A DNA stretch of 64,000 bases, from contig NZ_PGGM01000011.1 in the NCBI RefSeq assembly GCF_003010965.1, forward strand, positions 62,001 to 126,000, read 5' to 3'. The first letter of the stretch is position 1. Each line of letters begins with the position of its first letter. The DNA comes from Phyllobacterium sophorae (lineage in GTDB: Bacteria; Pseudomonadota; Alphaproteobacteria; Rhizobiales; Rhizobiaceae). Position numbers and translations under genes: made by a program. Shown here piece after piece: positions 1 through 15,000 of the stretch. Under the pieces are notes generated by a model. It saw only the letters and a list, made by a program, of their open reading frames with translations, was not told the DNA's origin and did no database searches.

Positions 1-134
1 AGTTCCATCGGCGCCTGCCGCTCACGCCAGTCCTGCCTTACCCGCTCCAGTTGCCCAACGAGCTCGGTTAGAAATTCCTCGCCGGAATAAACCGGGACGA
101 CGACAGAAATGGAGACGGGAGAATCCAATGCCAT
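1..134 (-). CDS. Family 2 glycosyltransferase, N-terminal fragment
   Basis: This gene starts at 134 and runs off the left edge of the window, so only about 44 residues are visible. The N-terminus reads as a beta strand followed by the motif SVVVPVYSGEEFL, the nucleotide-sugar-binding start of GT-A fold family 2 glycosyltransferases (dolichol-phosphate-mannose synthase and polysaccharide transferase type). An AAGGA ribosome-binding site lies about seven bases upstream. It is on the same strand as, and downstream of, the large membrane protein at 346-2682, which suggests a shared role in making or modifying a surface glycan. Donor and acceptor cannot be told from the fragment. Confidence 0.8.
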   Translation of the reverse strand, partial: MALDSPVSISVVVPVYSGEEFLTELVGQLERVRQDWRERQAPME

Positions 135-345
135 ACAGGTCCTTCCCGCATTCTTCGTGTGTCCTGACGCTCATTGGTCAGGTGCCATCCAGTAGGGGGC
201 GGGCTGTCCACTATCTGCGTCACTCTGGAACCGGCATCGATCAGGATTGAAATATCCTGAAATGAAGGTGCCCCTTGGACTGCTTAACTATAGATAAGTG
301 CATGTGTCAACGTAGAGGAAGTTCGCACGCACAATCGGCAGACCG

Positions 346-2682
346 TCAAACCCAGCTGCCATTCAGTTTAGGAGTGGGGGGGCTTGGATTGGAACGCAGA
401 CGCGGCCACACCAGCACCCCCACAATGGTCAGCATCACTACCACCCACCCGAGTTCGCTAATTCTGACGCGCCATTCATAGGTGTTAGGGCGATAGCGCA
501 GCATCGCACGACCCGAGACATTCGCGGGAACAAAGGCGACTACCTGCTGCTCTCGCAGGTTGTAAAGTGGCAACCTGCGCCCGCCCACCCACAATTGCCA
601 CGACGAATAGGGCGGCATGCTGATAACGAGAATCCGCTCTGGCCCTGGAGGAATTGAAAAGTCGAGGGCGTTAGCTTCCCGGTCAATCCGGGAGGGAGGG
701 ACGGCTAGGTCCGCCGGGCAATCGTCCCGTCCGTCCTGAAAGCCAATGACGGCCTGGACAAGAGCCCCCTCAAGCAGGGGTAGCTGACCCGGCGGGGTCT
801 TGAGGTTACTTGCGTCCGGTGCCTTTAGCTCATCCGGCTTCGGGCAAATGGTCGCCACCAGCGGTCGCTGACGGTTCAGCAGAAAGACCCCGATAGCGCC
901 GGTCCGGAAAACCTCCTTGCCCAATGTGTCGGGCAGAGGAACCATGGACAGAAGATACTTACCGCCGTAAGGGCCGAAATTGCTCTTGCCCACGAGGCCG
1001 ATCTCGTGCCTGAACTTCCAGTATATACGGGGCGATGTGTAGTGGCTGAATGTGGTAAAGCCCATATAGGTGGCGGCGGTGCCCGCCTTTAAATAGTTCA
1101 GGTCGCGGCCTTTTGATTTGACGTCGGTGGGGTCGCCGCTCTCGATCGATGTGTGCATTGCGATCCTGCCTGGATCGGGGTCCGATTTGCGTATGTGGTC
1201 AAGCGCCGCCTCGATGGATCGCCAAAGCTCGGTCCTGACAACGGCCGGCGTGCCGTCAAAGCGTGGCATCGATCCGACAACAAAGGCAAACTGTAATACC
1301 AGAAGGAAGGCGGCGCCCAAGCGGCGCATCATGCCCGATCTAATCCACGTCAAGACGGCGAACAGGATTGCCGATAGGGCAGTAATGACCCCAAGGAACC
1401 AGATCGGATAGACGCTTCTTAGCGTCGCAGTGGACATCACGGCAATAACGCTTGCGACTAAAATTGCCAGGCAGCCAATGCGCAACACCATAGATCGCTG
1501 CTGTTGTTTGGGGATGTCGTACAGCAGACTGGCCAAGCCGTGCGCCGTCAACACCGAGATCCCCACCGCGAGCGGCGTCGCCACCAGGCTGAGATGCCGA
1601 GTGTGGCTCAGACCCGGTATCAACGCCCAAAGCAGCACGACCTTACTCGGCGAGAGAAAGACCAGGACGATAGACAGGATAACAAGGATAGCGAAGACGC
1701 GGACGACAGGCTTTGACCAGCCCCGGACAGCGCCTAGAAATGCGAGAAGAGCGGCCGCGGGACCGAGCAGATAGTAGCCTGCAGCGAAATGCAAGTTGAT
1801 CGGCACGAGAAGTTGTGGCAGGTCGCGCCAGCTTTGTTGCTCTGTCAGGATCTCCGTAATGTTCGTGGTGCCGGCTTGCCCCACCACTGCTCCGCTGCGG
1901 GTCCAGCGTATGATCTCGCTGATATGGCTGAACAGGTTGATCGTCGAGGCGAGACAGAGAATGGCCGTGATGCCCGCTGCCGCGATCAGTGCGGCTGCCA
2001 GCCGGTGACCGATTGCGCCCTCTTTACTTGCTGCAAGCCGCACCAGTGTATCGACTGTCAGCACAAGTCCGATCAGGACGAGTGCCGAGAGCAGGTTCGT
2101 GCCTGGGCCTGCGGTCAGCATGGCGCTCGTTCCCGCTGCTAGCAGCAGGGCGCCGAGTGCAAACTGCCGATGATAGTACAGGCGGACGATACCCTCGGTG
2201 GCCAGGGGAAGCCAAGCCGCAGCCGCGATAAAAGTCGGGAAGTTAGAAATCGTATAGGTATTCGGGAGGGTGGCGGCGATGGCTGCGCCGCCAATTGAGG
2301 CGACAAGGCCTGCTCCGGTCGCTCTAATGAGGCTTGTCATTGTGATCGAGAAGATCGCGACATGAACGATCACGATGATGTCAGTAGCCTGTGCGGCGGC
2401 CGTGGCCGAGCAGAAGTCGAGCCAGCCGAAAAGATAGAACGGATAGTAAGGAGCTACGTGCGGATTGTAGTTAAGTGCTTCGAAGGTCGACCAGTTCATC
2501 AACGGCGACACGCCCGCCATCACACTGCGTGAGATATCGCAGAACAGCGGCCCGGTCAGATAGATCGTGTCACCGAACGGTGAGATGGACCAATGCGCTG
2601 AAAGGTACGGTGCATAGAGCGCGATGGCACCGCCAAGGGCGACGGCAACCAGAAGGATTTGAGTAAGTTCAGGCCGTTTCAT
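346..2682 (-). CDS. Large polytopic membrane protein, YfhO/GT-C-like
   Basis: The product is about 778 residues with many hydrophobic segments over the first 500 residues, a soluble stretch rich in beta-type sequence (about 520-740), and one last membrane helix near the C-terminus. This layout (multi-TM core, extracytoplasmic domain, final TM) resembles YfhO-family and GT-C-fold membrane proteins that use lipid-linked sugars. That assignment rests on layout, not on a signature motif. The start at 2682 (MKRPEL) is preferred over one seven codons upstream, because the residues between are polar and the upstream ATG has no visible ribosome-binding site. A family 2 glycosyltransferase follows on the same strand 211 bp downstream, supporting glycan assembly at the inner membrane. 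Confidence 0.7.
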   Translation of the reverse strand: MKRPELTQILLVAVALGGAIALYAPYLSAHWSISPFGDTIYLTGPLFCDISRSVMAGVSPLMNWSTFEALNYNPHVAPYYPFYLFGWLDFCSATAAAQATDIIVIVHVAIFSITMTSLIRATGAGLVASIGGAAIAATLPNTYTISNFPTFIAAAAWLPLATEGIVRLYYHRQFALGALLLAAGTSAMLTAGPGTNLLSALVLIGLVLTVDTLVRLAASKEGAIGHRLAAALIAAAGITAILCLASTINLFSHISEIIRWTRSGAVVGQAGTTNITEILTEQQSWRDLPQLLVPINLHFAAGYYLLGPAAALLAFLGAVRGWSKPVVRVFAILVILSIVLVFLSPSKVVLLWALIPGLSHTRHLSLVATPLAVGISVLTAHGLASLLYDIPKQQQRSMVLRIGCLAILVASVIAVMSTATLRSVYPIWFLGVITALSAILFAVLTWIRSGMMRRLGAAFLLVLQFAFVVGSMPRFDGTPAVVRTELWRSIEAALDHIRKSDPDPGRIAMHTSIESGDPTDVKSKGRDLNYLKAGTAATYMGFTTFSHYTSPRIYWKFRHEIGLVGKSNFGPYGGKYLLSMVPLPDTLGKEVFRTGAIGVFLLNRQRPLVATICPKPDELKAPDASNLKTPPGQLPLLEGALVQAVIGFQDGRDDCPADLAVPPSRIDREANALDFSIPPGPERILVISMPPYSSWQLWVGGRRLPLYNLREQQVVAFVPANVSGRAMLRYRPNTYEWRVRISELGWVVVMLTIVGVLVWPRLRSNPSPPTPKLNGSWV

Positions 2683-3434
2683 CTTGCACCGGTAAGGTGG
2701 CATGAACGATAGGCGGCGCGCGACGCTTTGCTGAGCCGTGAACGATGAACTCCTACGGGACTATTGGGAATTCCGTGTAAATATGTGCAGTTGAACATGA
2801 AATTCGATGCCCTGGTTGATTGGAAACGGTCCGCGAAGAGAATGTCGAACCGGGATTTTGCCATAGTCCATTTTTGGCAATATCTTCTTTCTTTCTAAGT
2901 TATGAGTTTGCTGCTTGGTTAGTGTTCGCGCAAAATATTTGATTAAGGGTATGTGCCGGATGCGTCGGAGTTACGAATTCGAGACGTTCGCCAGGTGCCG
3001 GACGGTATTTAGAAAGTAACTTCAGCATTATCAAACATCACTTGGCGTCTAATAAGCTGGTTATCACTGGATATCCTGATGATGAAATTATCCAGCGAAA
3101 TCGATAGGTGTTTCCTGAGAAACATTCGAAAACATCGTTGTCGGTTTGTGCAGCTATTTCTCACTTGCCAATAGACGATTGCACGCTTGAGGATCTATTC
3201 CCAATAAACCACCGAAGGCAGCGACAAGCTCCACAAAAAGTCAACGCCGAACTGGTTCTCCCGCAACAGCAAAACGGCAATGGCCAAAAATGGCATGATG
3301 CATTCCGTTAAAGCTAAAACAAGTGCATCGGGCCTGGAAACCGAAGGAACTATATCCGGTGGCTCACCAGCAATTATTACCCTGATCTCGATAAGCAAGC
3401 CGCGAAGGTGATTCCGAACACGCGATTTTGCCCG
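2683..3434. other. AT-rich intergenic region
   Basis: About 750 bp without a convincing gene. The sequence is more AT-rich than its surroundings around 2870-3110. A short minus-strand open frame (3195-3398) encodes one hydrophobic stretch but lacks a ribosome-binding site and a recognisable family. It could be the worn C-terminus of a membrane protein. I see no tRNA, clear terminator or repeat here. Confidence 0.5.
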
Positions 3435-4199
3435 TTAAACGGACGTTTTGATGGCCTTGATCCTCCGCATAAGTGAATTTGTAAACTTCTTGCGTGTATT
3501 TAGCCGCTCCCCAATACCGATATCAGAAAAGTCTACATTATGATAAAACCCTGCCATTTTTTGTATCTGTTCGACGCAATCTGACGGCAGGCTTCTGCCA
3601 CGGCCAGGAGTGACAGCGTTCTTTCTGTCAGACGTGCCAATAACAGAAGATATGACGTTCCGAATGGCTTCATCAGTTACTTCCAGATTTAAATAGCGAC
3701 AGATTCTCAAAAGCTCGATCTCAGGCTGGAAAACCCACTCCTCGTACTTGACGACAAGTTTGTTGGGGACCCCATACCAAGACATGTAAAAATTGAAATA
3801 CCACGGGATGATCATCCTCGTGACGAAGTGTGCGGATTCTTCAAAGGACCATTCCTGGATCCCCTCAGGTGCAAACGCCATCGGGTGGAGCAGGCTCTCC
3901 TTACGATGATGATCAATAAAACTTGGGATGACATCGAAAATGTTTCTCACCAAAATGATTGGTAGGAGTCGATGTTTTTCGATCATCGTCTTGGTGGCGT
4001 TTGAATAGCGTACGTGCAACTGCAATACATAATTGAGATCCTCGATCCTGCTTAAACAGCAGTCATCCAACTCCTGTTCACGACGTCCCCAGTCGGGGAC
4101 GCCGACGCCAGTAGTAAAGGTTGGTAGGGCACCAATAGCGTTGGAGAGAAACGTACTGCCAGATTTCGGCATGCACGCCAGCAAGACATGTTTTTGCAT
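3435..4199 (-). CDS. Sulfotransferase family protein
   Basis: The 254-residue product begins with MQKHVLLACMPKSGSTFL. The PKSGST loop is the 5'-phosphosulfate-binding motif of PAPS-dependent sulfotransferases. A later segment with a conserved arginine followed by DVIPSFIDHH fits the 3'-phosphate-binding and dimer region of the family. Length is normal for small bacterial sulfotransferases. The start at 4199 places the PSB loop within the first 16 residues and has a GGGGG ribosome-binding site; an upstream in-frame ATG would add 27 unlikely residues. It probably sulfates a carbohydrate or small molecule. The nearby glycosyltransferase genes on the same strand make a surface glycan plausible, but the substrate is not shown. 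Confidence 0.88.
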   Translation of the reverse strand: MQKHVLLACMPKSGSTFLSNAIGALPTFTTGVGVPDWGRREQELDDCCLSRIEDLNYVLQLHVRYSNATKTMIEKHRLLPIILVRNIFDVIPSFIDHHRKESLLHPMAFAPEGIQEWSFEESAHFVTRMIIPWYFNFYMSWYGVPNKLVVKYEEWVFQPEIELLRICRYLNLEVTDEAIRNVISSVIGTSDRKNAVTPGRGRSLPSDCVEQIQKMAGFYHNVDFSDIGIGERLNTRKKFTNSLMRRIKAIKTSV

Positions 4200-4758
4200 G
4201 GAATGCCCCCTATGTTGCGTCTGCGACAGCGATACACAACTAACGATTGCTGCACAATTGCTTACAACACACAATGACACATTCGAATCGATCTTTTCGG
4301 TGCAGGCTGCCTATGTTGCGCTTAACGGCTTCGCAATAGTGGCGGTCCTTGACGCAGTTCAAACTGGGGTCGACGTGCTTCCCACGCGTCGATACATTTC
4401 TGAATCGCACGCGAAGGGCAGTTCGCGCCGCCCGAGATCCCCAACTGGTGCCTGCCGATGATGTTCGCTTTATGTAAGCGCCGGGTCAGCGGCGGTGTTC
4501 CTTTGATCCTAAACTACGAACCGTGCGTATGCCGGCATTGCGATCTGCAGGGTCTACCCGGCGGCGCAGGGAAGAACCGCAAAGAGGGTCTTCTTCGAAA
4601 AGCGCATGGATTGGCGCCCTGCCATCGCCAGTTGGCGCTGAAGATTTGAGGGCATTTATCCATAAAGTCACACATTGGACTAAATCGGCGCTGGCTCATT
4701 GCGTCCTTGTAGCAAAGCCCACGCGAAACGTTGCCGCGGGGATGCTGCGGAGTGTGCC
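4200..4758. other. Divergent intergenic region upstream of the siderophore operon
   Basis: About 560 bp between the minus-strand sulfotransferase and the plus-strand acyltransferase. I see no gene supported in it; open frames here are short and compositionally unlike real proteins. The right-hand end carries the candidate iron-starvation promoter at 4681-4704. No TGA-N9-TCA motif was found within 140 bp of the acyltransferase start. Confidence 0.6.
4681..4704 (+). promoter_or_regulatory. Candidate iron-starvation (PvdS-type) promoter, TAAAT-N16-CGT
   Basis: TAAAT at 4681-4685 is followed after exactly 16 bases by CGT at 4702-4704. This is the -35/-10 pattern of promoters read by PvdS-type sigma factors (TAAAT-N16/17-CGT), and the TAAAT is preceded by C and followed by C as in the extended box. 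It lies 55 bp before the acyltransferase start, and a PvdS-like sigma gene lies in the same cluster at 14345-14863. The match is seen directly; use by that sigma factor is inference. Confidence 0.65.
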
Positions 4759-5781
4759 ATGACCCTTATATCCAGGCTTGCGAAGGAAACAGGTGTTGAA
4801 CCGTTTCCGGTCTCATCTCAATTCTTAAAAGCAGGTGCGCTGCCAACCCCGGATATATTGCAGGTTTCAACGGCCAGCGGCGCTTACACCATATCGGTGC
4901 AGCCAAGCCCGGGCGGGATGAACCTGGTTTTGCCGCGTGTAGCAGAGACTGATGCACTCGCCGTTCTGTGTTCCGCCGTCGAATTCATGTCAGCGCAGTC
5001 TCGCGAGCCGGGCGTAATCAAGATCGGCAATCTACCGGCATCCGACTTTCTGCTTGGCACTTTTGAAGGCGATTATCTGACGATCGATCCGCGCGCTTAT
5101 TGGCAATGGCCAAACCCCTGGATTGCGAAGCCGGCCTATCCGCATCCGCAGGTGCACGTTATGAGCAATGGCCAATATCATCCAAAACGGCCGCAAACGC
5201 CGGCCGGTGTCGTCTATGAGCGCTATATTCCCTGGCTCGGCCAGGTGCTGTCATTTCGGGTTGCCGATCCTCGGGCCGATCTTGAGCATTTCCATCGCTG
5301 GATGAATGACGAGCAGGTCAATGTCATCTGGGAAGATGGCGGCGATCGCGACAAGCATCGGTCAATTCTTGAGGAACGCCTGCATGATCCGCACATGCTG
5401 GCGCTGATTGGCAGCTTCAATGGCGTCCCCTTCGGTTATTTCGAGGTCTACTGGGCCAAGGAAAACCGGCTCGGGCCATATTACGATGCACAGGACTATG
5501 ATCGCGGCTGGCATGTCGCCATCGGCGAACCGGCCTATCGCGGCAAAAAGTGGATCACCGCCTGGCTGCCATCGCTGATGCATTTCATCTTTCTTGACGA
5601 TCCGCGGACGCAGCGCATCGTTGGCGAACCGCGCGCCAGTCACGAACAGCAGATCCGCAATCTCGACCGCTCGGGATTTGCCAAGGTCAAGCACTTCGAT
5701 TTTCCGCACAAACGCGCCATGCTGGTGATGCTGACACGCGAGCGGTTCTTCGGTGATCGTCTTTGGGTTCCCGCATCATGA
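4759..5781 (+). CDS. IucB-like siderophore N-acyltransferase
   Basis: A 340-residue protein whose C-terminal half (about 165-335) is a GNAT domain of the siderophore acyltransferase type (IucB/RhbD/VbsA-like). Visible marks are the HFHRWMNDEQV start of the domain, the GYFEVYW strand, and the HVAIGEPAYRGK acetyl-CoA-binding segment. The family acylates N-hydroxylated amino groups during hydroxamate siderophore assembly. FiuC of Pseudomonas aeruginosa, an acetyltransferase, instead modifies imported ferrichrome. The start at 4759 has a GGAG site seven bases upstream. Its stop overlaps the MATE gene start by four bases (ATGA), so the two are translationally coupled. No siderophore synthetase, hydroxylase or NRPS gene is present in this window, so a modifying rather than a biosynthetic role is possible. 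Confidence 0.88.
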   Translation: MTLISRLAKETGVEPFPVSSQFLKAGALPTPDILQVSTASGAYTISVQPSPGGMNLVLPRVAETDALAVLCSAVEFMSAQSREPGVIKIGNLPASDFLLGTFEGDYLTIDPRAYWQWPNPWIAKPAYPHPQVHVMSNGQYHPKRPQTPAGVVYERYIPWLGQVLSFRVADPRADLEHFHRWMNDEQVNVIWEDGGDRDKHRSILEERLHDPHMLALIGSFNGVPFGYFEVYWAKENRLGPYYDAQDYDRGWHVAIGEPAYRGKKWITAWLPSLMHFIFLDDPRTQRIVGEPRASHEQQIRNLDRSGFAKVKHFDFPHKRAMLVMLTRERFFGDRLWVPAS

Positions 5782-7190
5782 GGGGCAAGCCGAAACGCCC
5801 CTTTTTTGCACCTGATGACCTCAACGACCCGGCGCTGACCCGCCTGATCTTCCGCCTTGGCATGCCTGCGGTGGCGGGCCTGTCGATCAATGCCGTGCAC
5901 CATACGATCAACATGGTTTTCGTTGGCATGATAGGCAGTCATGAGATTGCGGCGATTACCGTGGTTCTGCCGATCCTGATGATGATTGGTGCAATCGGCG
6001 AGGGGTTGGGGGTTGGCGTTGCCACGGCCGTCGGCCGCGCGCTTGGAGCCGCTGATCCGCAGCGCGCCAATGTCACCGCCTCGACATTTGTCGTGCTGGC
6101 GATACCGCTCGGGCTTGTGCTCACGGTGGGCATCTTGGCGTTCAAACGTGAACTGCTTTTCCTTTTTGGCGCCAGCGAAGCCATTCTGCCGCTGGCGGAG
6201 CACTATCTTTCGATCGTTGCCTTTTCGGTGACGCTGACCATGCTGCAGATCCTTTCTGATTTCATAGCGATTTCAGAAGGCAATACCCGCTTTAGCATGT
6301 GGACGCTGATGGGCTGTTTTGCCCTCAACATCATCCTCGATCCGATCCTGATTTTCGGGTTTGGTTTCGGGCTCGCCGGTGCGGCAATGGCCACAATCCT
6401 TTCCCAGGTAGCAGCGCTTGGTGCCTATGCGCTCTATTTCCGCAAGCAGGTCGGGACGCTGCATCTTGCCGCGCGCTTTGCCGCGTGGCGCGCCGATGTC
6501 CTCAAACCGGCCCTGTTCATCGGCCTGCCGACGACGCTCACCAGCATGTTGAGCAGCATCAGTTTCGCCGTGCTGTTCTCCTTTGCCGGTTTTTATCGCG
6601 GCGATAGCGGCATTGCCGGGGTTGGCATCGCCATGCGTGTTCTCACGCTCGGTATGCTGCCAATCATCGGCCTTTCGCTTGGCGGTCAGGCAGTCTTAAG
6701 TTTCGCCTGGGGCGCGAGAAATCCAGCGCGATTGCTTGGTGCGTCGAGCACGCTTTTAAAACTCACCTCGGGCTTTGCCGTTCTTTACGGTTCTGCGGCC
6801 GTGCTCTTGCGCTATCCCATTGCCACGATCTTCACCGATGACGCGGAGATTGCCAAGATTGCTGCACTGACCATTATCGTCACGCACATTCCGTTCATTT
6901 TCTTTGGCGCCCGGCAAATCCTCGTTGTTCTCCTGCAGGCACAGGGCAGGGCGCGCCTGGCCGGTGCGATCAGTGTGGCCCAGAACGGGTATTTCCTGCT
7001 GCCGTTGCTGTTCATCCTGCCGCATTGGTTTGGCTTCGACGGCGTTCTTGCCAGCCTGTTTTTGGCACCAGCCCTGACAGCACTCATGTCCTTGGCCATT
7101 CTCGCTTTGACCTTGCGCCAGCTGCGCGGCCATTCGCCATCCATCCCGATTACCAGTTTCAACAAGAACGTGTCTGAGAGGGCATCATGA
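5778..7190 (+). CDS. MATE family efflux transporter
   Basis: A 470-residue inner-membrane protein with about 12 hydrophobic helices in two MatE halves (roughly 20-190 and 240-420). The N-terminal half shows the LGMPAVAGLSINAVHH and GMIGSHEIAA segments usual in MATE helices 1-2. MATE proteins export organic molecules using a sodium or proton gradient. The gene begins inside the stop codon of the acyltransferase (ATGA overlap) and ends inside the start of the PLP enzyme, again ATGA. This coupling suggests it exports the compound made or modified by those enzymes, most simply an acylated siderophore. The start at 5778 is chosen over one 15 bases earlier because of the overlap geometry. Confidence 0.93.
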   Translation: MRGKPKRPFFAPDDLNDPALTRLIFRLGMPAVAGLSINAVHHTINMVFVGMIGSHEIAAITVVLPILMMIGAIGEGLGVGVATAVGRALGAADPQRANVTASTFVVLAIPLGLVLTVGILAFKRELLFLFGASEAILPLAEHYLSIVAFSVTLTMLQILSDFIAISEGNTRFSMWTLMGCFALNIILDPILIFGFGFGLAGAAMATILSQVAALGAYALYFRKQVGTLHLAARFAAWRADVLKPALFIGLPTTLTSMLSSISFAVLFSFAGFYRGDSGIAGVGIAMRVLTLGMLPIIGLSLGGQAVLSFAWGARNPARLLGASSTLLKLTSGFAVLYGSAAVLLRYPIATIFTDDAEIAKIAALTIIVTHIPFIFFGARQILVVLLQAQGRARLAGAISVAQNGYFLLPLLFILPHWFGFDGVLASLFLAPALTALMSLAILALTLRQLRGHSPSIPITSFNKNVSERAS

Positions 7191-8371
7191 ACAAAGCCAT
7201 GCCACCCCAAGAGTTTGATCGCGAAATGCCGGACGATCTGTTTTCTCCGATCGATACGGCAGCCTTCAATGCGGTCTCGCCGCCCATCTTCCAAACGTCG
7301 CTGTTCACCTATGACAGCTATGAGGCGATGGAAGATGTGTTTTCGGGACGCTCGCGCAATTACATCTATTCGCGCGGCGACAATCCGACGGTGCGTGAAT
7401 TCGAACTTTTGACCGCGCGCCTTGAAGGCGCCGAAGATGGCCGCGGCTTTTCCAGTGGCACGGCGGCAATTACCGCAACGATCCTCAGCCTCGTAGAAGC
7501 CGGTGACCGCGTCGTCGCCGTCCAGCATCTCTACAATGATATCTACCGCCTGTTCGTCAAACTGCTTGCCCGCTTCGGCGTCACGGTGGATTTTGTCGAC
7601 CCGTCCAACCATGATGAGGTACGCGCTGCACTGCCGGACGCAAAACTGCTCTATCTTGAAAACCCCACATCAATGGTTTTCGAATTGCAGGACATTGAGG
7701 CCCTGACCACAATGGCCAAGGAATATGGCGTGACCACCGTTATCGACAATTCCTGGGCAACGCCGCTGTTCCAAAAGCCAATCCAGCACGGCGTCGACAT
7801 CGTCATCCATGCGGCTTCAAAATATCTCGGCGGGCACAGCGACACGGTTGCCGGCGTGGTCGTCGGTCCGCGCGACCTGATCGCCAAGATCAACAGCTCG
7901 ACCTACCCCTATATTGGCGCGAAATTGTCGCCCTTTGAAGCCTGGCTGCTTTTGCGCGGCATGCGGACCTTGAAGGTGCGATTGAAGGCGCACATGCATA
8001 ACGGACTCATCCTTGCCAAGCACCTGCAGCAGCATCGCGATATTGCGCTTGTTCGCCATCCCGCATTTTCCGATCACCCGGGCAAGAAGACACTGACGGG
8101 CTTTTCCGGTCTGTTTGCCTTTGATCTGAGCCCGGATCTCGATGTGGCGCGTTTTGTCAATGCGCTGCGTCATATCAGGCTTGGCGTCAGCTGGGGAGGA
8201 CCTGAAACGCTCGTTGTTCCGGCCAAAGCCGCCTTGCAGATCCCTGATCGCATGACGTCGTTTGTCCGCTTCGGTGTGAACCCGCAAACGATCCGCTTTG
8301 CCGTCGGTTTGGAGGAACCGGAAATGATCTGGAACGACATCCAGCAGGCACTGCTGAGCGCCCGCCTGTAG
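7187..8371 (+). CDS. Cys/Met-metabolism PLP-dependent enzyme (cystathionine beta-lyase / gamma-synthase family)
   Basis: A 394-residue fold-type I PLP enzyme of the Cys/Met metabolism family, close to the usual length. The phosphate-binding YSR motif is at residues 61-63, the cofactor-stacking tyrosine is in QHLYNDIY (about 116), and the Schiff-base lysine is Lys212 in AASKYLGGHSD. The C-terminus has the family motif for substrate carboxylate binding (TIRFAVGLEEPE). Members cleave or form C-S or C-gamma bonds of cystathionine, methionine or O-acyl-homoserine, and specificity cannot be assigned by eye. It is the third gene of an operon coupled by ATGA overlaps to a MATE exporter and a siderophore acyltransferase, which is unusual company for this family. 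It may supply a building block or a thiol reductant; both ideas are inference. Confidence 0.9.
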   Translation: MNKAMPPQEFDREMPDDLFSPIDTAAFNAVSPPIFQTSLFTYDSYEAMEDVFSGRSRNYIYSRGDNPTVREFELLTARLEGAEDGRGFSSGTAAITATILSLVEAGDRVVAVQHLYNDIYRLFVKLLARFGVTVDFVDPSNHDEVRAALPDAKLLYLENPTSMVFELQDIEALTTMAKEYGVTTVIDNSWATPLFQKPIQHGVDIVIHAASKYLGGHSDTVAGVVVGPRDLIAKINSSTYPYIGAKLSPFEAWLLLRGMRTLKVRLKAHMHNGLILAKHLQQHRDIALVRHPAFSDHPGKKTLTGFSGLFAFDLSPDLDVARFVNALRHIRLGVSWGGPETLVVPAKAALQIPDRMTSFVRFGVNPQTIRFAVGLEEPEMIWNDIQQALLSARL

Positions 8372-8496: not shown

Positions 8497-8540
8497 TATA
8501 AATTCTCAAGCAGAGTCAAAGTTTTACAAGGGGTGTGGTC

Positions 8541-10715
8541 ATGCGGGGATGCACGATGGTTATGGCAAATGACGCCAGTTTTGCGGTTTACAGGCGTCGT
8601 GCACGATTGCTCATCACCACCTCCATTGCCGGTCTAATGCTGGCAAATGTGGCATCGGCCCAGGAAGCGCCCAGCATCCAGTTGAACACCATTGTCATTG
8701 ACGGTGATACCAGCCCGATTGGCCCCGACAAGGGCTATATTGCCAGGAACACGACCATGGGCACAAAGACCGACACGCCGCTGCGCGAAATACCGCAGTC
8801 GATTTCCGTCATCACCCGCGAGCAGATGGATGACCGGTTTTCCGAGCGCGTCGAGGATACGATTGCCTATACATCCGGGGTGACGGCTTCGCCCTGGGGC
8901 GTTGACGAGCGCTTTGACCAATTCTTGATCCGAGGCTTCGATGTTGGCCCTTACGCGCTCTTCCGCGATGGGCTGCCGCAAAAGGCCATCGACTTTTCAG
9001 GTTTCAAAGTCGAGCCATACGCCCTGGAGCGGGTTGAAGTCCTCAAGGGCCCGGCATCGGTGCTTTACGGCGCAAACGAAGTGGGCGGTCTCGTCAATCT
9101 GGTGACAAAGCGGCCAACCAGGGACCCGCTTTACAGCGCCTATGCGAGCTATGGATCCTTCAATACGTATGAAGTGGGTATCGATGCAGGCGGTCCGCTC
9201 GACAAGGAAGGCGTTTGGACCTACCGCCTGACGGGGCTTTTCCGTGACGGAGAGCTGGAAAAGGACTTCTCCAAGAACAATCGGGTCTTCATTGCGCCCG
9301 CCATTACATGGTCGCCGAGTGCCGATACCTCGCTGACAATTCTCGCCAACTACCAGTGGGACGAGTTGACGCCAAACACATTCCTGCCAATTGCCAGCCC
9401 GCTCAATCCCACCCTGCCGAAATTCTCGCGCAGCTTCACCACATCCGATCCGAATTTCGACCGTTTTGACGCAAATCATGGCTCGATCGGCTACCAGTTC
9501 GAGCACAGCTTCAACGAGGCTTGGACGGTCCGGCAGAACCTTCGATACTCGCAGCAGGACACGGATTACCGGCATCTCTACTATTCGAGCATGATCGACG
9601 ATCACACAATGAACCGCACGGCGTTCACTGTTGACGAGACGGCAACGATCTTCAGTGTCGATAGTGGCGTGCAGTATGATTATGAAGGCACGCGGATAAA
9701 GAACACGTTGCTTATGGGGCTGGACTATACCCGCCAGACCGTTGACGGACAAAATGGCTTTGATACCGGGCCAACGCTGGATATCAATGACCCCGTCTAT
9801 GGACTGGACGTTGCAGCGCCGGCGATCTATCTCGACCGCAGACAGACAATCGATCAGCTTGGCCTCTACGCTCAAACCCAGACGAAATTCGACGATCACT
9901 GGTTGCTGACCCTCGGCGGGCGCCAGTCATGGGTTGAAGACAAGAATCAGGACCGGCTGAGCGATACGACCTCGGAACAATCAGACAGCGCCTTTAGCGG
10001 CAAGGCCGGCCTTGGTTATCTGTTTGACAATGGCTTGACGCCCTATATCAGCTATTCGGAATCCTTCAGCCCAACCATCGGCCAAGGCTCCACGGGCGAG
10101 ACATTTTCCCCGTCAGAAGGCCAGCAGTATGAAGCCGGCGTGAAGTACGAACCGGACTTTTTCCCGGGAACAGTAACCGGGTCCGTTTTCGAAATCACCA
10201 AGTCCAATGTGCTGACCCCTGATCCCGATGATCCGAATTTCCAGGTCCAGACCGGTGAAGTTCGCCACCGCGGCTTCGAACTTGAGACAGTGATGGATCT
10301 CTTCCACGGTATTAGCCTGACCGGCAGTTACACCTATCTTGATGCTGAAATTACATCGAGCAATACCGAGGGAGAACTGGGCAATCGCCCGGCACTGGTG
10401 CCCGAGCATCAAGCGGCACTTTGGGCGAAATACACCTTCGAAACCGGTGTGCTCGAGGGTCTGAATGTTGGATCCGGCGTGCGCTATGTCGGCAGTTCCT
10501 TTGGCGACAACGCCAACCAGATCAAGGTGGACAGCTATACGCTTGTCGATGCCGCGATCAGCTATGAGAAGAATGGCTGGAAGGGATCGCTCAAGGCGAG
10601 CAATGTCTTCGACAAGGAGTATTACGCAACCTGTGCGGGCGACAACGATGGCAGTCCCATGTGCATCTATGGCGAGGGACGCGCTGTCAAGGCAACGCTC
10701 TCGGCCAAATTCTAG
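8541..10715 (+). CDS. TonB-dependent siderophore receptor (hydroxamate type)
   Basis: A 724-residue outer-membrane receptor of the FhuA/FoxA class. The signal peptide contains RRRARLLITT and ends at ASA near residue 34. A TonB-box-like stretch (NTIVIDG) follows, then the plug domain (about 60-170, with REIPQSISVITREQ and the VEVLKGPASVLYG motif) and a 22-strand barrel ending in aromatic AKF. No N-terminal STN signalling domain is present: the plug begins almost directly after the TonB box. The start at 8541 has AAGGGG six bases upstream. It heads the uptake operon with the ATPase 10 bp downstream. Two TGA-N9-TCA motifs upstream suggest iron repression. The exact ligand is unknown; a hydroxamate is favoured because the permease is a fused FhuB type. 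Confidence 0.95.
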   Translation: MRGCTMVMANDASFAVYRRRARLLITTSIAGLMLANVASAQEAPSIQLNTIVIDGDTSPIGPDKGYIARNTTMGTKTDTPLREIPQSISVITREQMDDRFSERVEDTIAYTSGVTASPWGVDERFDQFLIRGFDVGPYALFRDGLPQKAIDFSGFKVEPYALERVEVLKGPASVLYGANEVGGLVNLVTKRPTRDPLYSAYASYGSFNTYEVGIDAGGPLDKEGVWTYRLTGLFRDGELEKDFSKNNRVFIAPAITWSPSADTSLTILANYQWDELTPNTFLPIASPLNPTLPKFSRSFTTSDPNFDRFDANHGSIGYQFEHSFNEAWTVRQNLRYSQQDTDYRHLYYSSMIDDHTMNRTAFTVDETATIFSVDSGVQYDYEGTRIKNTLLMGLDYTRQTVDGQNGFDTGPTLDINDPVYGLDVAAPAIYLDRRQTIDQLGLYAQTQTKFDDHWLLTLGGRQSWVEDKNQDRLSDTTSEQSDSAFSGKAGLGYLFDNGLTPYISYSESFSPTIGQGSTGETFSPSEGQQYEAGVKYEPDFFPGTVTGSVFEITKSNVLTPDPDDPNFQVQTGEVRHRGFELETVMDLFHGISLTGSYTYLDAEITSSNTEGELGNRPALVPEHQAALWAKYTFETGVLEGLNVGSGVRYVGSSFGDNANQIKVDSYTLVDAAISYEKNGWKGSLKASNVFDKEYYATCAGDNDGSPMCIYGEGRAVKATLSAKF

Positions 10716-10725
10716 GCGGCAGGTG

Positions 10726-11505
10726 ATGAGGGGAACGTCCTTTTCCTTGAATGGAATCAGCTTCAAAGTCGATGGCAAGACCTTGCTCCATCCGCTGACC
10801 CTGGACGTTCCGCGTGGCCAGGTCGTCGGCATTCTCGGCCACAATGGTTCCGGCAAGTCGACATTGCTGAAGATACTGGCGCGCTTTCAATCGCCAACCA
10901 GCGGAAGTGCGAAATGCCTGGAACAGGAGCTGGCATCATTCCGCTCGAAGGACTATGCGCGCAAGGTCGCCTATCTGCCGCAGCAAACACCGGACACGGA
11001 TGGTATGACGGTGAAGGAAGTCGTTGCCTTGGGGCGCTACCCCTGGCACGGTGCGCTTGGGCGGTTTTCAGCTGCGGACAAGGCGAAGGTAGAAAACGCG
11101 CTGGAGCTGACGTCGCTGACGGCAATGGCCGATCGCATCGTCGATACATTGTCGGGGGGCGAGCGGCAGCGCGCGTTTCTCGCCATGCTGATTGCGCAGG
11201 ACACCGAGTGTCTCTTGCTGGATGAGCCGATCTCAGCGCTTGATATCAATCATCAGATCGAAGTCATGCGGCTGATCCGCATGCTGGCACACGAGCACAG
11301 CCGGTCGGTTCTCATCGTATTGCACGATATCAACATGGCTGCGCGCTATTGCGACCGGCTGATTGCCTTATCCGGCGGCAGGCTTGTGGCCAACGGCGAG
11401 ACCGACGCGCTCATTACGGCAGACAGGCTTGACGCCATCTATGGCGTGCGCATGGGGATCTTCAGGCATCCGCAAACACACACGCCCATCAGCTACGTCC
11501 TTTGA
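10726..11505 (+). CDS. Fe(3+)-hydroxamate ABC transporter ATP-binding protein (FhuC/FecE type)
   Basis: A 259-residue ATPase. Walker A is GHNGSGKST (38-46), the signature is LSGGERQR, Walker B is CLLLDEP and the H-loop is in VLHDINMA. The LGRYPWHG segment in the Q-loop region and the AARYCDRLIAL tail are typical of iron-siderophore importers. The start at 10726 is 10 bp after the receptor stop; a GTG directly before it is an alternative, and the ribosome-binding site is weak. The stop lies one base before the start of the binding-protein gene, so the four uptake genes are one operon. It powers the FhuB-like permease encoded two genes downstream. Confidence 0.95.
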   Translation: MRGTSFSLNGISFKVDGKTLLHPLTLDVPRGQVVGILGHNGSGKSTLLKILARFQSPTSGSAKCLEQELASFRSKDYARKVAYLPQQTPDTDGMTVKEVVALGRYPWHGALGRFSAADKAKVENALELTSLTAMADRIVDTLSGGERQRAFLAMLIAQDTECLLLDEPISALDINHQIEVMRLIRMLAHEHSRSVLIVLHDINMAARYCDRLIALSGGRLVANGETDALITADRLDAIYGVRMGIFRHPQTHTPISYVL

Positions 11506-11506
11506 A

Positions 11507-12367
11507 ATGACCAAAATGCGCAGACGCAACTTTCTGTTTGGCTCGGCGGCATTTGCTGCCACCCTGAGGCCAGTGCCGGGCAGGGCGGCTGCACCAAGGG
11601 TGGTTGCGCTGGATTATGGTCTGGCACAGACGTTGATTGAGCTTGGTGTCCCGCCAGTTGGTCTGATTGATACGCAAGGGTGGGCCGAATGGCCCATTGA
11701 ACCGCCACTGCCGGCAAGTGTCGTTAACATTGGCTCCTCCTTTGAAGTCAATATGGAGCTGCTGCAGCTGCTAAAGCCGGACCTGATCATCTCCACACCC
11801 TATCTCGAATGGGTCAGGCCGCAGCTGGAACAAATCGCACCGGTCAAATCGTTCCCAATTCATGCGCTCGGTTCATCGCCCTATCCGCACATCATTGCCG
11901 CAACGCGCGAACTTGGGCGCATGCTTGGACGCCAGGGCGAAGCCGAAGCATTGATCGATCGCACCGACAATGAATTGCAAGTGGCAAAGGCATCAACGCG
12001 ACATTTGGGCAAGCTTGCAGTCATCACATTCATTGATGCCCGCAATATCCGCGTTTACGGCCCGGGCGGTATTTTTCAGGATGTCTTTGATCGTCTCGAG
12101 CTGGAGAATGCGTGGCCACACCCCACCAATGAATGGGGCTTTGGTGATACCAGCATGGCCGGTCTCGTTGATATCGGCGACAGCCGGCTGTTCTACATGG
12201 ATCCTGTTCCGCCAGATCTCCTGGCAACCCTGGCTGATAGCCCACTGTGGCAAAGCATGCCGTTCGTCAAGAACGGACATGCGCAGCGCATGGCGAGTGT
12301 TTTGATGTTCGGCACGCTCCCTGCCGCCTCTCGCTTTGCCCGACTGCTCACTGAAGCTGCCGCATGA
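11507..12367 (+). CDS. Iron-siderophore periplasmic binding protein (FhuD/FecB type)
   Basis: A 286-residue protein with a twin-arginine signal (RRRNFLFGSAAF, residues 5-16), so probably exported folded by Tat to the periplasm. The body is a single class III periplasmic-binding fold: the N-lobe carries VVALDYGLAQTLIELGVPPVG and LLKPDLIIS, the bridging helix covers roughly 125-150, and the C-lobe has a GFGDTSMAGL ligand-side loop. These features fit FhuD-like hydroxamate binders. It starts one base after the ATPase stop and its own stop overlaps the permease start (ATGA). It would hand the ferric siderophore to the FhuB-like permease. Confidence 0.93.
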   Translation: MTKMRRRNFLFGSAAFAATLRPVPGRAAAPRVVALDYGLAQTLIELGVPPVGLIDTQGWAEWPIEPPLPASVVNIGSSFEVNMELLQLLKPDLIISTPYLEWVRPQLEQIAPVKSFPIHALGSSPYPHIIAATRELGRMLGRQGEAEALIDRTDNELQVAKASTRHLGKLAVITFIDARNIRVYGPGGIFQDVFDRLELENAWPHPTNEWGFGDTSMAGLVDIGDSRLFYMDPVPPDLLATLADSPLWQSMPFVKNGHAQRMASVLMFGTLPAASRFARLLTEAAA

Positions 12368-14358
12368 AGTCGCTGCATCCCCATCCTTTGTTTTGGGCCG
12401 GTCTGTTGTCGTGTGTTGCCCTTGCTATCACCGCGCTCAATCTTGGGCCCATGATCAGCATCATTGGATGGCGTGCAGCTTTTTCAGCGCCATCGCCCAG
12501 CGACAGTTTGGCAGTCCTTGTCCATTATAGTCTGCTTCCGCGCCTGGCCATGGCGTGCGTTTGTGGCTTTGCGCTCGGGCTATCCGGCATGCTGTTCCAG
12601 CATGTGCTGCGCAATCCGCTGGCTTCACCGTCAACCTTGGGCGTAGAGGCAGGCGCACAGCTTGCTCTCGCATTGGCCATGTTGTGGTTCCCGGCGCTTC
12701 TTGGTTGGAGCCGCGATGCCACGACGGCTCTCGGAGGCTTTGCCGCCATGGCGCTTGTCTTTGCGGCAGCCTGGCGGCTCAAATTCCAGCCGGTCGCCAT
12801 CATTCTTAGCGGATTGGTCGTTGGCCTTTATTGCACTGCGATCGTTACCTTGCTGACCCTGATGAACGATCATTATCTATCGGGTCTGTTCATCTGGGGT
12901 GGCGGTTCGCTGAACCAGAATGATTGGCGCCAGGTTCAAGGATTGTTTCCAAAAGTCGTTGCCTGCAGCCTTGTTGCATTTATGCTGGCGCGGCAGTTGA
13001 GCGTCCTTACGTTGGGCGATACTGCGCAAAGCCTTGGAATCAAATTGCAATTCACCCGCGCTGGCGTGCTGTTTGTTGCGGTGGCACTGACTGCATTCAC
13101 CGTCAGTGCCGTTGGAGTCATTGGCTTTCTCGGGCTTGCAGCGCCGGCCATTGCGCGTGCAACTGGTGCAAGGCGTATCAAGTCCCGCATGATTGTTTCA
13201 CCGCTCATTGGCTCGCTATTGCTGGTCATCATCGATCAGGTTTTGCAAATTTATGCTGCAAAAACCTCTGTGCATCTTCCAACCGGTGCCATCACCGCGC
13301 TGATCGGTGTGCCTGTCCTCTTGATTGTTATCTTGCGGCGCGGACGTTCGATGCTGGCCGCGGCCGACGGCAAAGCGGCACTCCCAGCAAGCAGGCTCCC
13401 CCTGCGCGTGATAGCAAGCATCGCGCTCTTGTTATTGGTGGTTGCATCGATTGCGGTATTTGTCGGCCGGGATGTCGATGGGGCGTGGATAAGTCAAGGC
13501 GGTGCAACGCTCGAATCTCTCCTGCCATGGCGCGGGCCCCGGCTCGTTGCTGCAATGTCCGCAGGGTTGATGCTGGCACTGGCCGGCAGCTTGCTGCAGC
13601 GGCTTACCGGCAATTCGATGGCAAGCCCGGAAGTTCTTGGCGTCAGCGCCGGTACGGCATTCGGGCAGCTTTGCATATTGTTTATTATTGCCGAGCCAAC
13701 CTATGGCCACAGGATGTTCGGTGGTTTTTCGGGCGCTGCGATCGTGCTCACCGTGCTTTTTGCCATGAGCCGCAAGGTGCGTTCCGGCAACCAGTTTCTC
13801 ATTATTGGCGTGTCGCTGGGCGCATTGCTGAGCGCATTGATCTCAGTCATTCTTGCCTCTGGAGACCCGCGTGCTGTTTCGCTGATCAGCTGGATGGCAG
13901 GTTCGACGTATGGGATAAGCCGTCAAATCGCATGGATATCATTGGCGTTTGCGGTAAGTGGTTTGGCTGCGGTAACGCTTTTTCTGCGGCCATTGCAGCA
14001 ATTTGCACTGGGGGATATCTCGGCGCATTCCCACGGTGTCGACGTTGCGAAATTCCGCGTTATGATTCTTGGCTTTGCGGCCTTGTTGACAGCCATCGCC
14101 ACATTGGTCGTGGGTCCGCTAAGCTTCGTTGGACTGATGGCACCGCATATGGCGCAGCGCCTTGGACTGACACGTGGTCTGGCGCATCTGTTGGGGTCGG
14201 CGCTGCTCGGGGCGCTGCTGATGGCGATCGCGGATTTCATCGGACGCACAATCTATTTCCCGTGGCAATTGCCCACGGGCCTTGTCGCGACACTGCTTGG
14301 AGGTCCGGTGTTCGCGCTCCTGCTGATCCGCACCGGGCGTCGATCTATGCAGCATTGA
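12364..14358 (+). CDS. fhuB: Fused FhuB-type iron-siderophore permease
   Basis: A 664-residue inner-membrane permease made of two tandem FecCD/BtuC-type domains (about 1-330 and 340-664), the arrangement of FhuB, where one chain replaces the usual permease dimer. Each half has the NPLASPSTLGVEAG or NSMASPEVLGVSAG loop and a GFLGLAAPAIAR or SFVGLMAPHMAQR coupling segment contacting the ATPase. The single-chain form is characteristic of hydroxamate import systems. It overlaps the binding-protein gene by ATGA. Its 3' end overlaps the convergent sigma-factor gene by 14 bp. Gene symbol is used for the fold and family; the ligand may differ from ferrichrome. Confidence 0.93.
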   Translation: MKSLHPHPLFWAGLLSCVALAITALNLGPMISIIGWRAAFSAPSPSDSLAVLVHYSLLPRLAMACVCGFALGLSGMLFQHVLRNPLASPSTLGVEAGAQLALALAMLWFPALLGWSRDATTALGGFAAMALVFAAAWRLKFQPVAIILSGLVVGLYCTAIVTLLTLMNDHYLSGLFIWGGGSLNQNDWRQVQGLFPKVVACSLVAFMLARQLSVLTLGDTAQSLGIKLQFTRAGVLFVAVALTAFTVSAVGVIGFLGLAAPAIARATGARRIKSRMIVSPLIGSLLLVIIDQVLQIYAAKTSVHLPTGAITALIGVPVLLIVILRRGRSMLAAADGKAALPASRLPLRVIASIALLLLVVASIAVFVGRDVDGAWISQGGATLESLLPWRGPRLVAAMSAGLMLALAGSLLQRLTGNSMASPEVLGVSAGTAFGQLCILFIIAEPTYGHRMFGGFSGAAIVLTVLFAMSRKVRSGNQFLIIGVSLGALLSALISVILASGDPRAVSLISWMAGSTYGISRQIAWISLAFAVSGLAAVTLFLRPLQQFALGDISAHSHGVDVAKFRVMILGFAALLTAIATLVVGPLSFVGLMAPHMAQRLGLTRGLAHLLGSALLGALLMAIADFIGRTIYFPWQLPTGLVATLLGGPVFALLLIRTGRRSMQH

Positions 14359-14863
14359 GGATGTGCTGGCAAGCGCGGTGCGCGTCCTTGATCATGAAGT
14401 TAACGAGGGTTCTGGATACGCCGAGTTCTTCGGCAATATCTTTTTGCGGAACGCCATCTATACGGTGACGCACGAAGGCGTCGTGGGTGCGTTGCGGCAG
14501 ATTTTTCAATGAGTTCAGCACCTCGCGCAATGTTTCTGTACTGACGAGGCAATCGAGCGCGCTGACACATGGGGCAGGGATGGACTCTATCCCGTCGATC
14601 GGCCTCATGCTGAGCCTTTCGTGGGTCTTTTTGCGGGCCGCGTCGACGGCGAGATTATAGACCATCCGGCACGCGTACCCAACCGGGCAATGAATGCAAT
14701 CAGGTCGCATGCTACAGGCCTTGACGACAGCATCATGGAAGATATCTTCAGATTGTGCGTGAGAATGCAGTATTCCGTCAGCGATTTTTAGAAGTTTTGG
14801 CTTGTATTGAATAAGCGCATCGACAAGAACATTGCTATTATACGAGTCTTGTTCTTTTTCCAT
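14345..14863 (-). CDS. PvdS/RpoI-like iron-starvation ECF sigma factor
   Basis: A 172-residue ECF sigma factor. Region 4.2 reads GVPQKDIAEELGVSRTLVNFM, nearly the PvdS sequence, placing it in the iron-starvation subgroup (PvdS, RpoI, OrbS) rather than classic FecI. Region 2 contains an odd cysteine cluster, Cys50, Cys56, Cys59 and Cys65 (C-x5-C-x2-C-x5-C), in the segment just before RMVYNLAVDAARKK; PvdS has no such set. Two more cysteines (99, 105) lie in the linker. No FecR anti-sigma gene is adjacent and the nearby TonB receptor lacks a signalling domain, so control is probably by transcription and perhaps by the cysteines. The promoter overlaps a TGA-N9-TCA motif. The likely target is the acyltransferase operon promoter at 4681. 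Confidence 0.9.
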   Translation of the reverse strand: MEKEQDSYNSNVLVDALIQYKPKLLKIADGILHSHAQSEDIFHDAVVKACSMRPDCIHCPVGYACRMVYNLAVDAARKKTHERLSMRPIDGIESIPAPCVSALDCLVSTETLREVLNSLKNLPQRTHDAFVRHRIDGVPQKDIAEELGVSRTLVNFMIKDAHRACQHILNAA

Positions 14864-14971: not shown

Positions 14972-15000
14972 CTATAATTTAACATGATAAAAAGAGTCAA
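14972..15000 (-). promoter_or_regulatory. Putative sigma-70 promoter of the iron-starvation sigma gene
   Basis: On the minus strand TTGACT (15000-14995) is followed after 17 bases by TTATAG (14977-14972). The spacing is optimal and the -35 box is near consensus. The TGA-N9-TCA motif at 14985-14999 sits inside this promoter, as expected for repression. The predicted leader before the start codon at 14863 is about 100 bases. Confidence 0.5.
14985..14999. promoter_or_regulatory. RirA-type iron-responsive operator upstream of the sigma gene
   Basis: TGA (14985-14987), nine bases, TCA (14997-14999). It lies about 120 bp upstream of the sigma-factor start and overlaps its candidate -35 box and spacer. 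The same motif occurs twice upstream of the TonB receptor, giving a consistent picture of iron repression of both the sigma factor and the uptake operon. Confidence 0.6.

Follow-up and report, generated by a model that had tools for sequence, protein, structure and literature searches.

Iron sensing by siderophore sigma factors that have no anti-sigma partner is little known beyond OrbS, and the question of how such a factor might respond to iron is raised again by a gene of Phyllobacterium sophorae, which lies in a stretch of 64,000 nucleotides (the window, whose base 1 is base 62001 of contig C2). With very little doubt the gene encodes RpoI, a PvdS-type sigma factor driving a vicibactin-like siderophore cluster, an assignment that draws on orthology, gene content and conserved target promoters. 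Its product carries four cysteines in sigma region 2, and these are predicted, with reasonable likelihood, to make up a single Cys4 metal site stapling the promoter-melting loop L3 to its two flanking helices. A built-in metal switch in the Phyllobacterium RpoI is plausible, and the explanation that we favour overall, tentatively and at somewhat less than an even chance, is an RpoI in which the Cys4 site at L3 acts as an iron brake. The features at issue are these:

14345–14863, minus strand: rpoI-like iron-starvation extracytoplasmic function (ECF) sigma factor gene, 172 amino acids, ATG start
14669–14716, minus strand: region-2 cluster C50-x5-C56-x2-C59-x5-C65, bracketing loop L3 (from the translation, 16/16 genus orthologs and the sigmaE alignment)
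14369–14371, minus strand: codon of C165, the family cysteine ending region 4.2 (C196 of OrbS; from sequence and alignment)

Sigma regions 2 and 4 are the sole domains found by Pfam in the 172-residue protein, which was scanned without Met1, and both lie over the cut-off (Sigma70_r4_2, E=6.9e-10; Sigma70_r2, E=2.2e-5). By tblastn the protein is 56.7% identical, over residues 9–165, to the sigma gene on pRL12 of Rhizobium johnstonii 3841 (L089), and in the family tree it forms one clade with Rhizobium RpoI at a support of 100/100. The pRL12 relative is RpoI, pRL120319, as assigned from its place among siderophore genes, and this protein is described as an ECF sigma factor serving the adjacent vbs genes (PMC1557990). 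Judged by sequence, then, the Phyllobacterium gene is the ortholog of Rhizobium RpoI, and the PvdS/RpoI-like character proposed in the initial annotation is borne out. A Phyllobacterium plasmid record holds a sigma protein that is 98.8% identical. Foldseek with the sigma protein gave zero Protein Data Bank matches at E<=0.001, the top 20 all being ECF sigma factors.

The translation places cysteines at residues 50, 56, 59, 65, 99, 105 and 165, and the Sigma70_r2 match covers the first four, which confirms the initial annotation in its assignment of Cys50, Cys56, Cys59 and Cys65 to region 2. The accompanying statement that PvdS has none in this region holds at the four positions themselves and fails beyond them, since two PvdS-like sequences (L162 and L165) have one cysteine, in ‘GCR’ before AED. 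An ortholog was found in 16 of 20 genomes of the genus; among the other four, G402, G403 and G407 gave no sigma match and G408 gave distant matches only. The four cysteines are kept in all 16 orthologs, in 12/12 loci (11 Phyllobacterium records and one ‘Rhizobiales bacterium’) and in the most distant genus ortholog (G410/L057), where the set is complete at 56% identity. Across 17 distinct genus sequences 69 of the 172 columns are invariant. The stretch 51–58 is variable, only M52 and C56 being unchanged, and residues 59–72 show almost no variation. At each of the four sites TGT and TGC codons are mixed, C56 being TGT in only 1/17. In the linker, C99 is variable and one of these sequences lacks C105; C165 is invariant. 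The counterpart of C165 is the cysteine common to OrbS and PvdS (PMC9023288), which makes C165 the ordinary conserved cysteine of the family and the region-2 cluster an addition to it.

The distribution of the set was surveyed in 123 aligned rows, comprising the query and 122 distinct sequences from genome, genus, family, order, class, phylum and plasmid searches. All four cysteines occur in 18 of these rows, namely the query, the same gene as found in its own genome (L021) and 16 other loci, all of which, with the exception of L013 (‘Rhizobiales bacterium’), are assigned to the genus by name or by group code. The set is absent from each of the remaining 105 PvdS/RpoI/FecI-like rows, six of which have C50 without the other three. 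In other words, the question of whether the cysteines are both conserved and restricted to a subgroup, which the initial annotation had left to be checked, receives a positive answer on both counts within the survey. The larger taxonomic groups were covered partially, by sampled genomes, and further lineages with four cysteines may therefore exist outside the genus. In the Rhizobium group a match, counted by search result alone, was obtained in 41 of 148 genomes, and every one of these matches has Y-[G/D]-C-F at the positions in question while keeping the C165 counterpart (41/41). Between Phyllobacterium and its Rhizobium sister clade, therefore, three of the four cysteines differ jointly. For the sigma paralogs of the genome itself, total cysteine counts were taken in 8 of 11 matches. 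On viral contigs, 40 stretches fitted the pattern and none of them coded for a sigma relative.

Alignment to Escherichia coli sigmaE, which has a two-residue gap ahead of residue 55, pairs C50 with Y58, C56 with G66, C59 with A69 and C65 with Y75. Loop L3 corresponds to sigmaE residues 63–72 and forms the pocket that receives the master base flipped out of the −10 element (PMC6372665; PMC8103513 also bears on this loop), such that C56 and C59 would fall within L3 and C50 and C65 on the helices to either side. An AlphaFold model, for which the input was 13 sequences, all near relatives, agrees with this alignment in having a helix at 35–50, a loop at 51–59 and a helix at 60–86; the predicted local distance difference test score (pLDDT) is 81–84 for residues 31–50, 65 for 51–60 and 71–74 for 61–80. 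Against the complex of sigmaE with −10 DNA (4lup), 78 residues of the model align at 2.6 Å with a Z of 8.0, a value of about 8 not being high for helical folds.

Could iron status reach the factor by the more familiar route, through the cell surface? FecR (PF04773), the only anti-sigma family searched for, has no match on the contig of the window, and among 32 genomes the closest FecR on the contig of the sigma gene lies some 127 kb off (G413), short contigs limiting what ‘nearby’ can mean. The neighbouring TonB receptor consists of Plug and barrel only and has no signalling-domain match in Pfam up to E=1. The absence of a nearby FecR gene and of a signalling domain in the receptor, both of which had been noted initially, thus hold up, and on these two grounds cell-surface signalling of the FecI/FecR/FecA kind is rejected.

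A route through transcription is probable. Upstream of the sigma gene are found:

14972–15000, minus strand: sigma70-type promoter TTGACT-N17-TTATAG, with its −35 box at 14995–15000 and its −10 box at 14972–14977 (by eye and in an aligned block)
14985–14999, minus strand: palindrome TGA-N9-TCA of the iron-responsive operator (IRO) type, the RirA operator motif, over the −35 box (from sequence)

The palindrome is present in 17/17 upstream regions, three from Rhizobium included. The genome itself has four Rrf2 matches, one of which (L189) we presume to resemble RirA. TGA-N9-TCA is the motif reported at RirA targets (PMC8822346), and RirA in its [4Fe-4S] form binds IRO-type boxes (PMC6748827). 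Iron thus probably already represses transcription of the sigma gene by way of the IRO box. Any sensor on board the protein would then be a second layer of control, as in OrbS, and not a replacement for the first.

The promoters that the factor would serve bear on whether the cluster alters the choice of target. In the window there is:

4681–4704, plus strand: RpoI/PvdS-type promoter TAAAT-N16-CGT, ahead of the acetyltransferase operon (pattern match)

A second TAAAT-N16-CGT stands at C2:57899 on the minus strand, ahead of the MbtH–nonribosomal peptide synthetase (NRPS) operon, and all 12 loci, as well as G410 and P. zundukense, have both divergent copies. We take TAAAT at −35 and CGT at −10 to be the PvdS-type promoter consensus. 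The pattern by itself is not uncommon (the window contains 2, allowing N16–17), and the weight rests on its conserved position. Three Rhizobium-group loci (L071–L073, of group g2, which also has matches at named Rhizobium plasmid coordinates) have TAAAT-N16-CGT directed towards the acetyltransferase. R. johnstonii 3841 gives no pattern match, and inspection by eye of its intergenic sequence finds TAAAC-N16-CGT in both directions. The Cys-bearing and Cys-poor clades hence appear to recognise the same type of promoter, which makes it improbable that the cluster alters promoter specificity, and the idea that the Cys loop serves such a change is disfavoured.

The iron brake that we tentatively prefer would operate as follows. 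RirA would act first, on transcription of the sigma gene. In the protein that is made, the Cys4 site would pin loop L3, the element that captures the flipped promoter base, such that the factor with iron bound would be poorly active; under iron starvation the apo form would be active, and the site would in this way provide a post-translational checkpoint after RirA control. That the bound metal is iron, most likely as Fe(II) or an Fe–S cluster, and that it makes the loaded protein poorly active and the apo protein active as a second checkpoint, is possible, though open to considerable doubt. The polarity, with the iron-loaded protein off, is suggested by analogy with OrbS and by what an iron-starvation factor would be expected to do, and an Fe–S cluster is conceivable in that the C-x2-C-x5-C spacing matches that of WhiB1. 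The more specific proposal, in which an iron or Fe–S site in the promoter-melting loop lets iron gate base flipping at the −10 element, is on present indications unlikely.

The history of the cluster can be read from a tree in which the four cysteine columns were left out. Rhizobium is there nested within the Cys-bearing clade, with G410 outside (branch support of 97/96, and of 99/90 in the other tree; both trees gave warnings on long branches in the outgroups), a topology that would imply one gain, after which Rhizobium lost three of the cysteines together.

Several observations weigh against the iron brake. In 100,000 shuffles of the protein at least four cysteines fell within 16 residues in 5.3%, so that clustering as such is weak evidence (the exact C-x5-C-x2-C-x5-C spacing arose in 0.013%), and four columns drawn at random would all be unchanged across the genus set in about 2.5% of cases; conservation is the stronger evidence of the two, and still moderate. 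The mean pLDDT of the AlphaFold model is 59, a low overall confidence. Given the IRO box on the sigma gene, a second iron input is not required. The Rhizobium ortholog, without three of the four cysteines, has the same promoter type, and the cluster is accordingly not needed for sigma function. Lastly, a tree in which Phyllobacterium is held together is not rejected (approximately unbiased test, p=0.158), which leaves the single ancestry of the motif unsettled and makes a gain of the cluster in Phyllobacterium possible. The weakness of the shuffle test, together with the near invariance of residues 59–72 throughout the genus and the occurrence of C50 alone in six of the 105 other sequences, would suit the view that the cysteines have no special function and are lineage-specific residues kept by general conservation, C59 being common to Rhizobium anyway. 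We consider this improbable on balance, because C56 is invariant inside a variable loop, the four-Cys set is intact in an ortholog at 56% identity and three of the four differ jointly in all 41 Rhizobium matches.

If the cysteines do bind a metal, it might instead be structural, a Cys4 knuckle holding Zn(II) that stiffens a short L3 and senses nothing, RirA alone giving iron control. A CxxC with a Pro after it is common in zinc knuckles, C50 and C65 occupy the places of Y and F in Rhizobium RpoI, and the IRO box already provides for iron. The sister clade, however, has the same promoter type without the site, which shows that the site is not needed to shape the loop, and, as a matter of argument and not of data, it is hard to see what a single genus would gain from a fixed structural site of its own; structural zinc accordingly seems to us rather unlikely. 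The remaining possibility is a metal-free thiol switch, in which disulfides formed under oxidative stress turn the factor off (or on). Conserved thiols do lie close together at a functional loop, and iron uptake and oxidative stress are often co-regulated, but there are four thiols where two suffice, and no stress gene is among the genes identified at the locus in the part of the open reading frames that was scanned. Such a switch we regard as very improbable.

A regulatory metal site in a sigma melting loop is not described in the literature found. A fixed-phrase search, narrow in reach, returned no metal-binding or Fe–S sigma factors; cysteines in RpoI figure in no title or abstract opening of the literature searched, most subscription papers lying outside its reach, and a term search of PMC8908255 finds mention of neither cysteine nor RpoI. 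Should iron bind, the site would be an iron sensor within the core DNA-opening element of RNA polymerase. Moreover, nature supplies a matched pair at the same promoter type, RpoI with four cysteines in Phyllobacterium and without three of them in Rhizobium, such that the role of the cluster is testable by the swapping of a few residues.

The sigma gene belongs to a siderophore locus, the other genes of which in the window are:

4699–5781, plus strand: siderophore GNAT acetyltransferase, vbsA-like (Pfam Acetyltransf_8, E=2.3e-55; 86% to the P. zundukense gene)
5763–7190, plus strand: MATE family exporter, vbsD-like (TIGR00797, over the cut-off)
7187–8371, plus strand: pyridoxal phosphate (PLP)-dependent enzyme, vbsL-like (PF01053)
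8535–10715, plus strand: TonB-dependent siderophore receptor (Plug and barrel over the cut-off)
10465–11505, plus strand: fhuC-like ATP-binding protein of an ABC transporter (translation; annotated so at the corresponding place in P. zundukense)
11363–12367, plus strand: substrate-binding protein, fhuD-like (translation; gene order as in P. zundukense)
12364–14358, plus strand: FhuB permease (NF007866, 681 bits, over the cut-off)

The vbs gene letters (A, D, L, G, S, O) are those that we presume to apply. The true start of the acetyltransferase is probably the ATG at 4759, and those of the fhuC-like and fhuD-like genes probably lie further downstream than 10465 and 11363. From the acetyltransferase to the sigma gene the order is the same as in the P. 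zundukense locus; the sigma gene and fhuB are convergent, their 3′ ends overlapping by 14 bases (14345–14358). Genes for MbtH, NRPS and a SidA-type monooxygenase lie to the left of the window, at C2:52222–57842. In P. zundukense and R. johnstonii the MbtH–NRPS genes adjoin the acetyltransferase, whereas here the two promoters lie about 8.8 kb apart. This spacer (C2:57900–66680, of which window positions 1–4680 are part) encodes, among others, a sulfotransferase and a 785-residue protein that has no match in Pfam.

Cysteines of other kinds are seen in related sigma factors. Twelve of the 105 other sequences (L025–L031, L033–L036 and L177) have a cysteine motif in the linker, for example PCACP-x6-C; 10 of the 12 have another cysteine before region 2.2 and all 12 have the C165 counterpart. 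In ten of the genomes concerned no FecR is found on the contig of the sigma gene at a distance of less than 170 kb, a statement limited by the shortness of some contigs. The linker of CorE carries an essential CxC (PMC8999054), and the linker motif may represent a second type of built-in metal site. Two further relatives, L178 (G1506) and L184 (G1606), have a different region-2 cysteine set, Y-C-C-Q-V-V-R-N followed by DHC or DYC.

Among characterised systems the nearest is RpoI of the pea symbiont R. leguminosarum/johnstonii 3841, the locus of which also has the acetyltransferase, MATE exporter, PLP enzyme, MbtH, NRPS and SidA-type monooxygenase; the Rhizobium-group loci L071–L073 share in addition the TAAAT-N16-CGT promoter and the IRO box. 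It differs in reading Y-D-C-F in place of the four cysteines and, as encoded at L089, 18001–18636, in extending at the C-terminus by a cysteine-free tail of about 50 residues, for which Phyllobacterium RpoI has no counterpart, and its locus differs in gene order and in that the fhu ABC genes are not within the 36 kb viewed. A further likeness is to the [4Fe-4S] protein WhiB1, in which C37, C40 and C46 have the spacing of C56-x2-C59-x5-C65, whereas the first cysteine precedes the second by 28 residues there and by 6 here (PMC6282962). Wbl proteins, moreover, are small and unrelated; some bind a sigma factor, and they are not themselves sigma factors. Their G[V/I]WGG turn after the last cysteine was not found in the Phyllobacterium sequence.

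There are also sigma factors that carry cysteines of their own and have no anti-sigma factor. CorE and CorE2 of Myxococcus xanthus are of this kind, but in them metal activates (PMC8999054); a C-terminal Cys-rich domain with a linker CxC was not found in the Phyllobacterium protein, where neither C99 nor C105 of the linker is invariant, and membership of the CorE type is rejected in view of the different places of the cysteines. In OrbS of Burkholderia cenocepacia, Fe(II) inhibits through C-terminal cysteines (PMC9023288), and the initial annotation was correct in drawing the comparison with this on-board sensor. Like Phyllobacterium RpoI, OrbS is a PvdS-type siderophore sigma factor with extra cysteines, without a partner anti-sigma gene, beside a receptor without a signalling domain and encoded under a global iron repressor (PMC9023288). 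The iron response has been shown for OrbS and is put forward as a possibility for Phyllobacterium RpoI. The cysteines of OrbS, C196-x2-C-x3-C-x5-C, are C-terminal, whereas beyond region 4.2 Phyllobacterium RpoI has no four-Cys cluster and only C165 (the equivalent of C196), the protein ending 7 residues later; its cluster being in region 2, it is not assigned to the OrbS type. If the iron brake is real, on-board metal sites would have been gained at three places in these factors: the C-terminus in OrbS, the linker in the Cys-bearing relatives and region 2 in Phyllobacterium.

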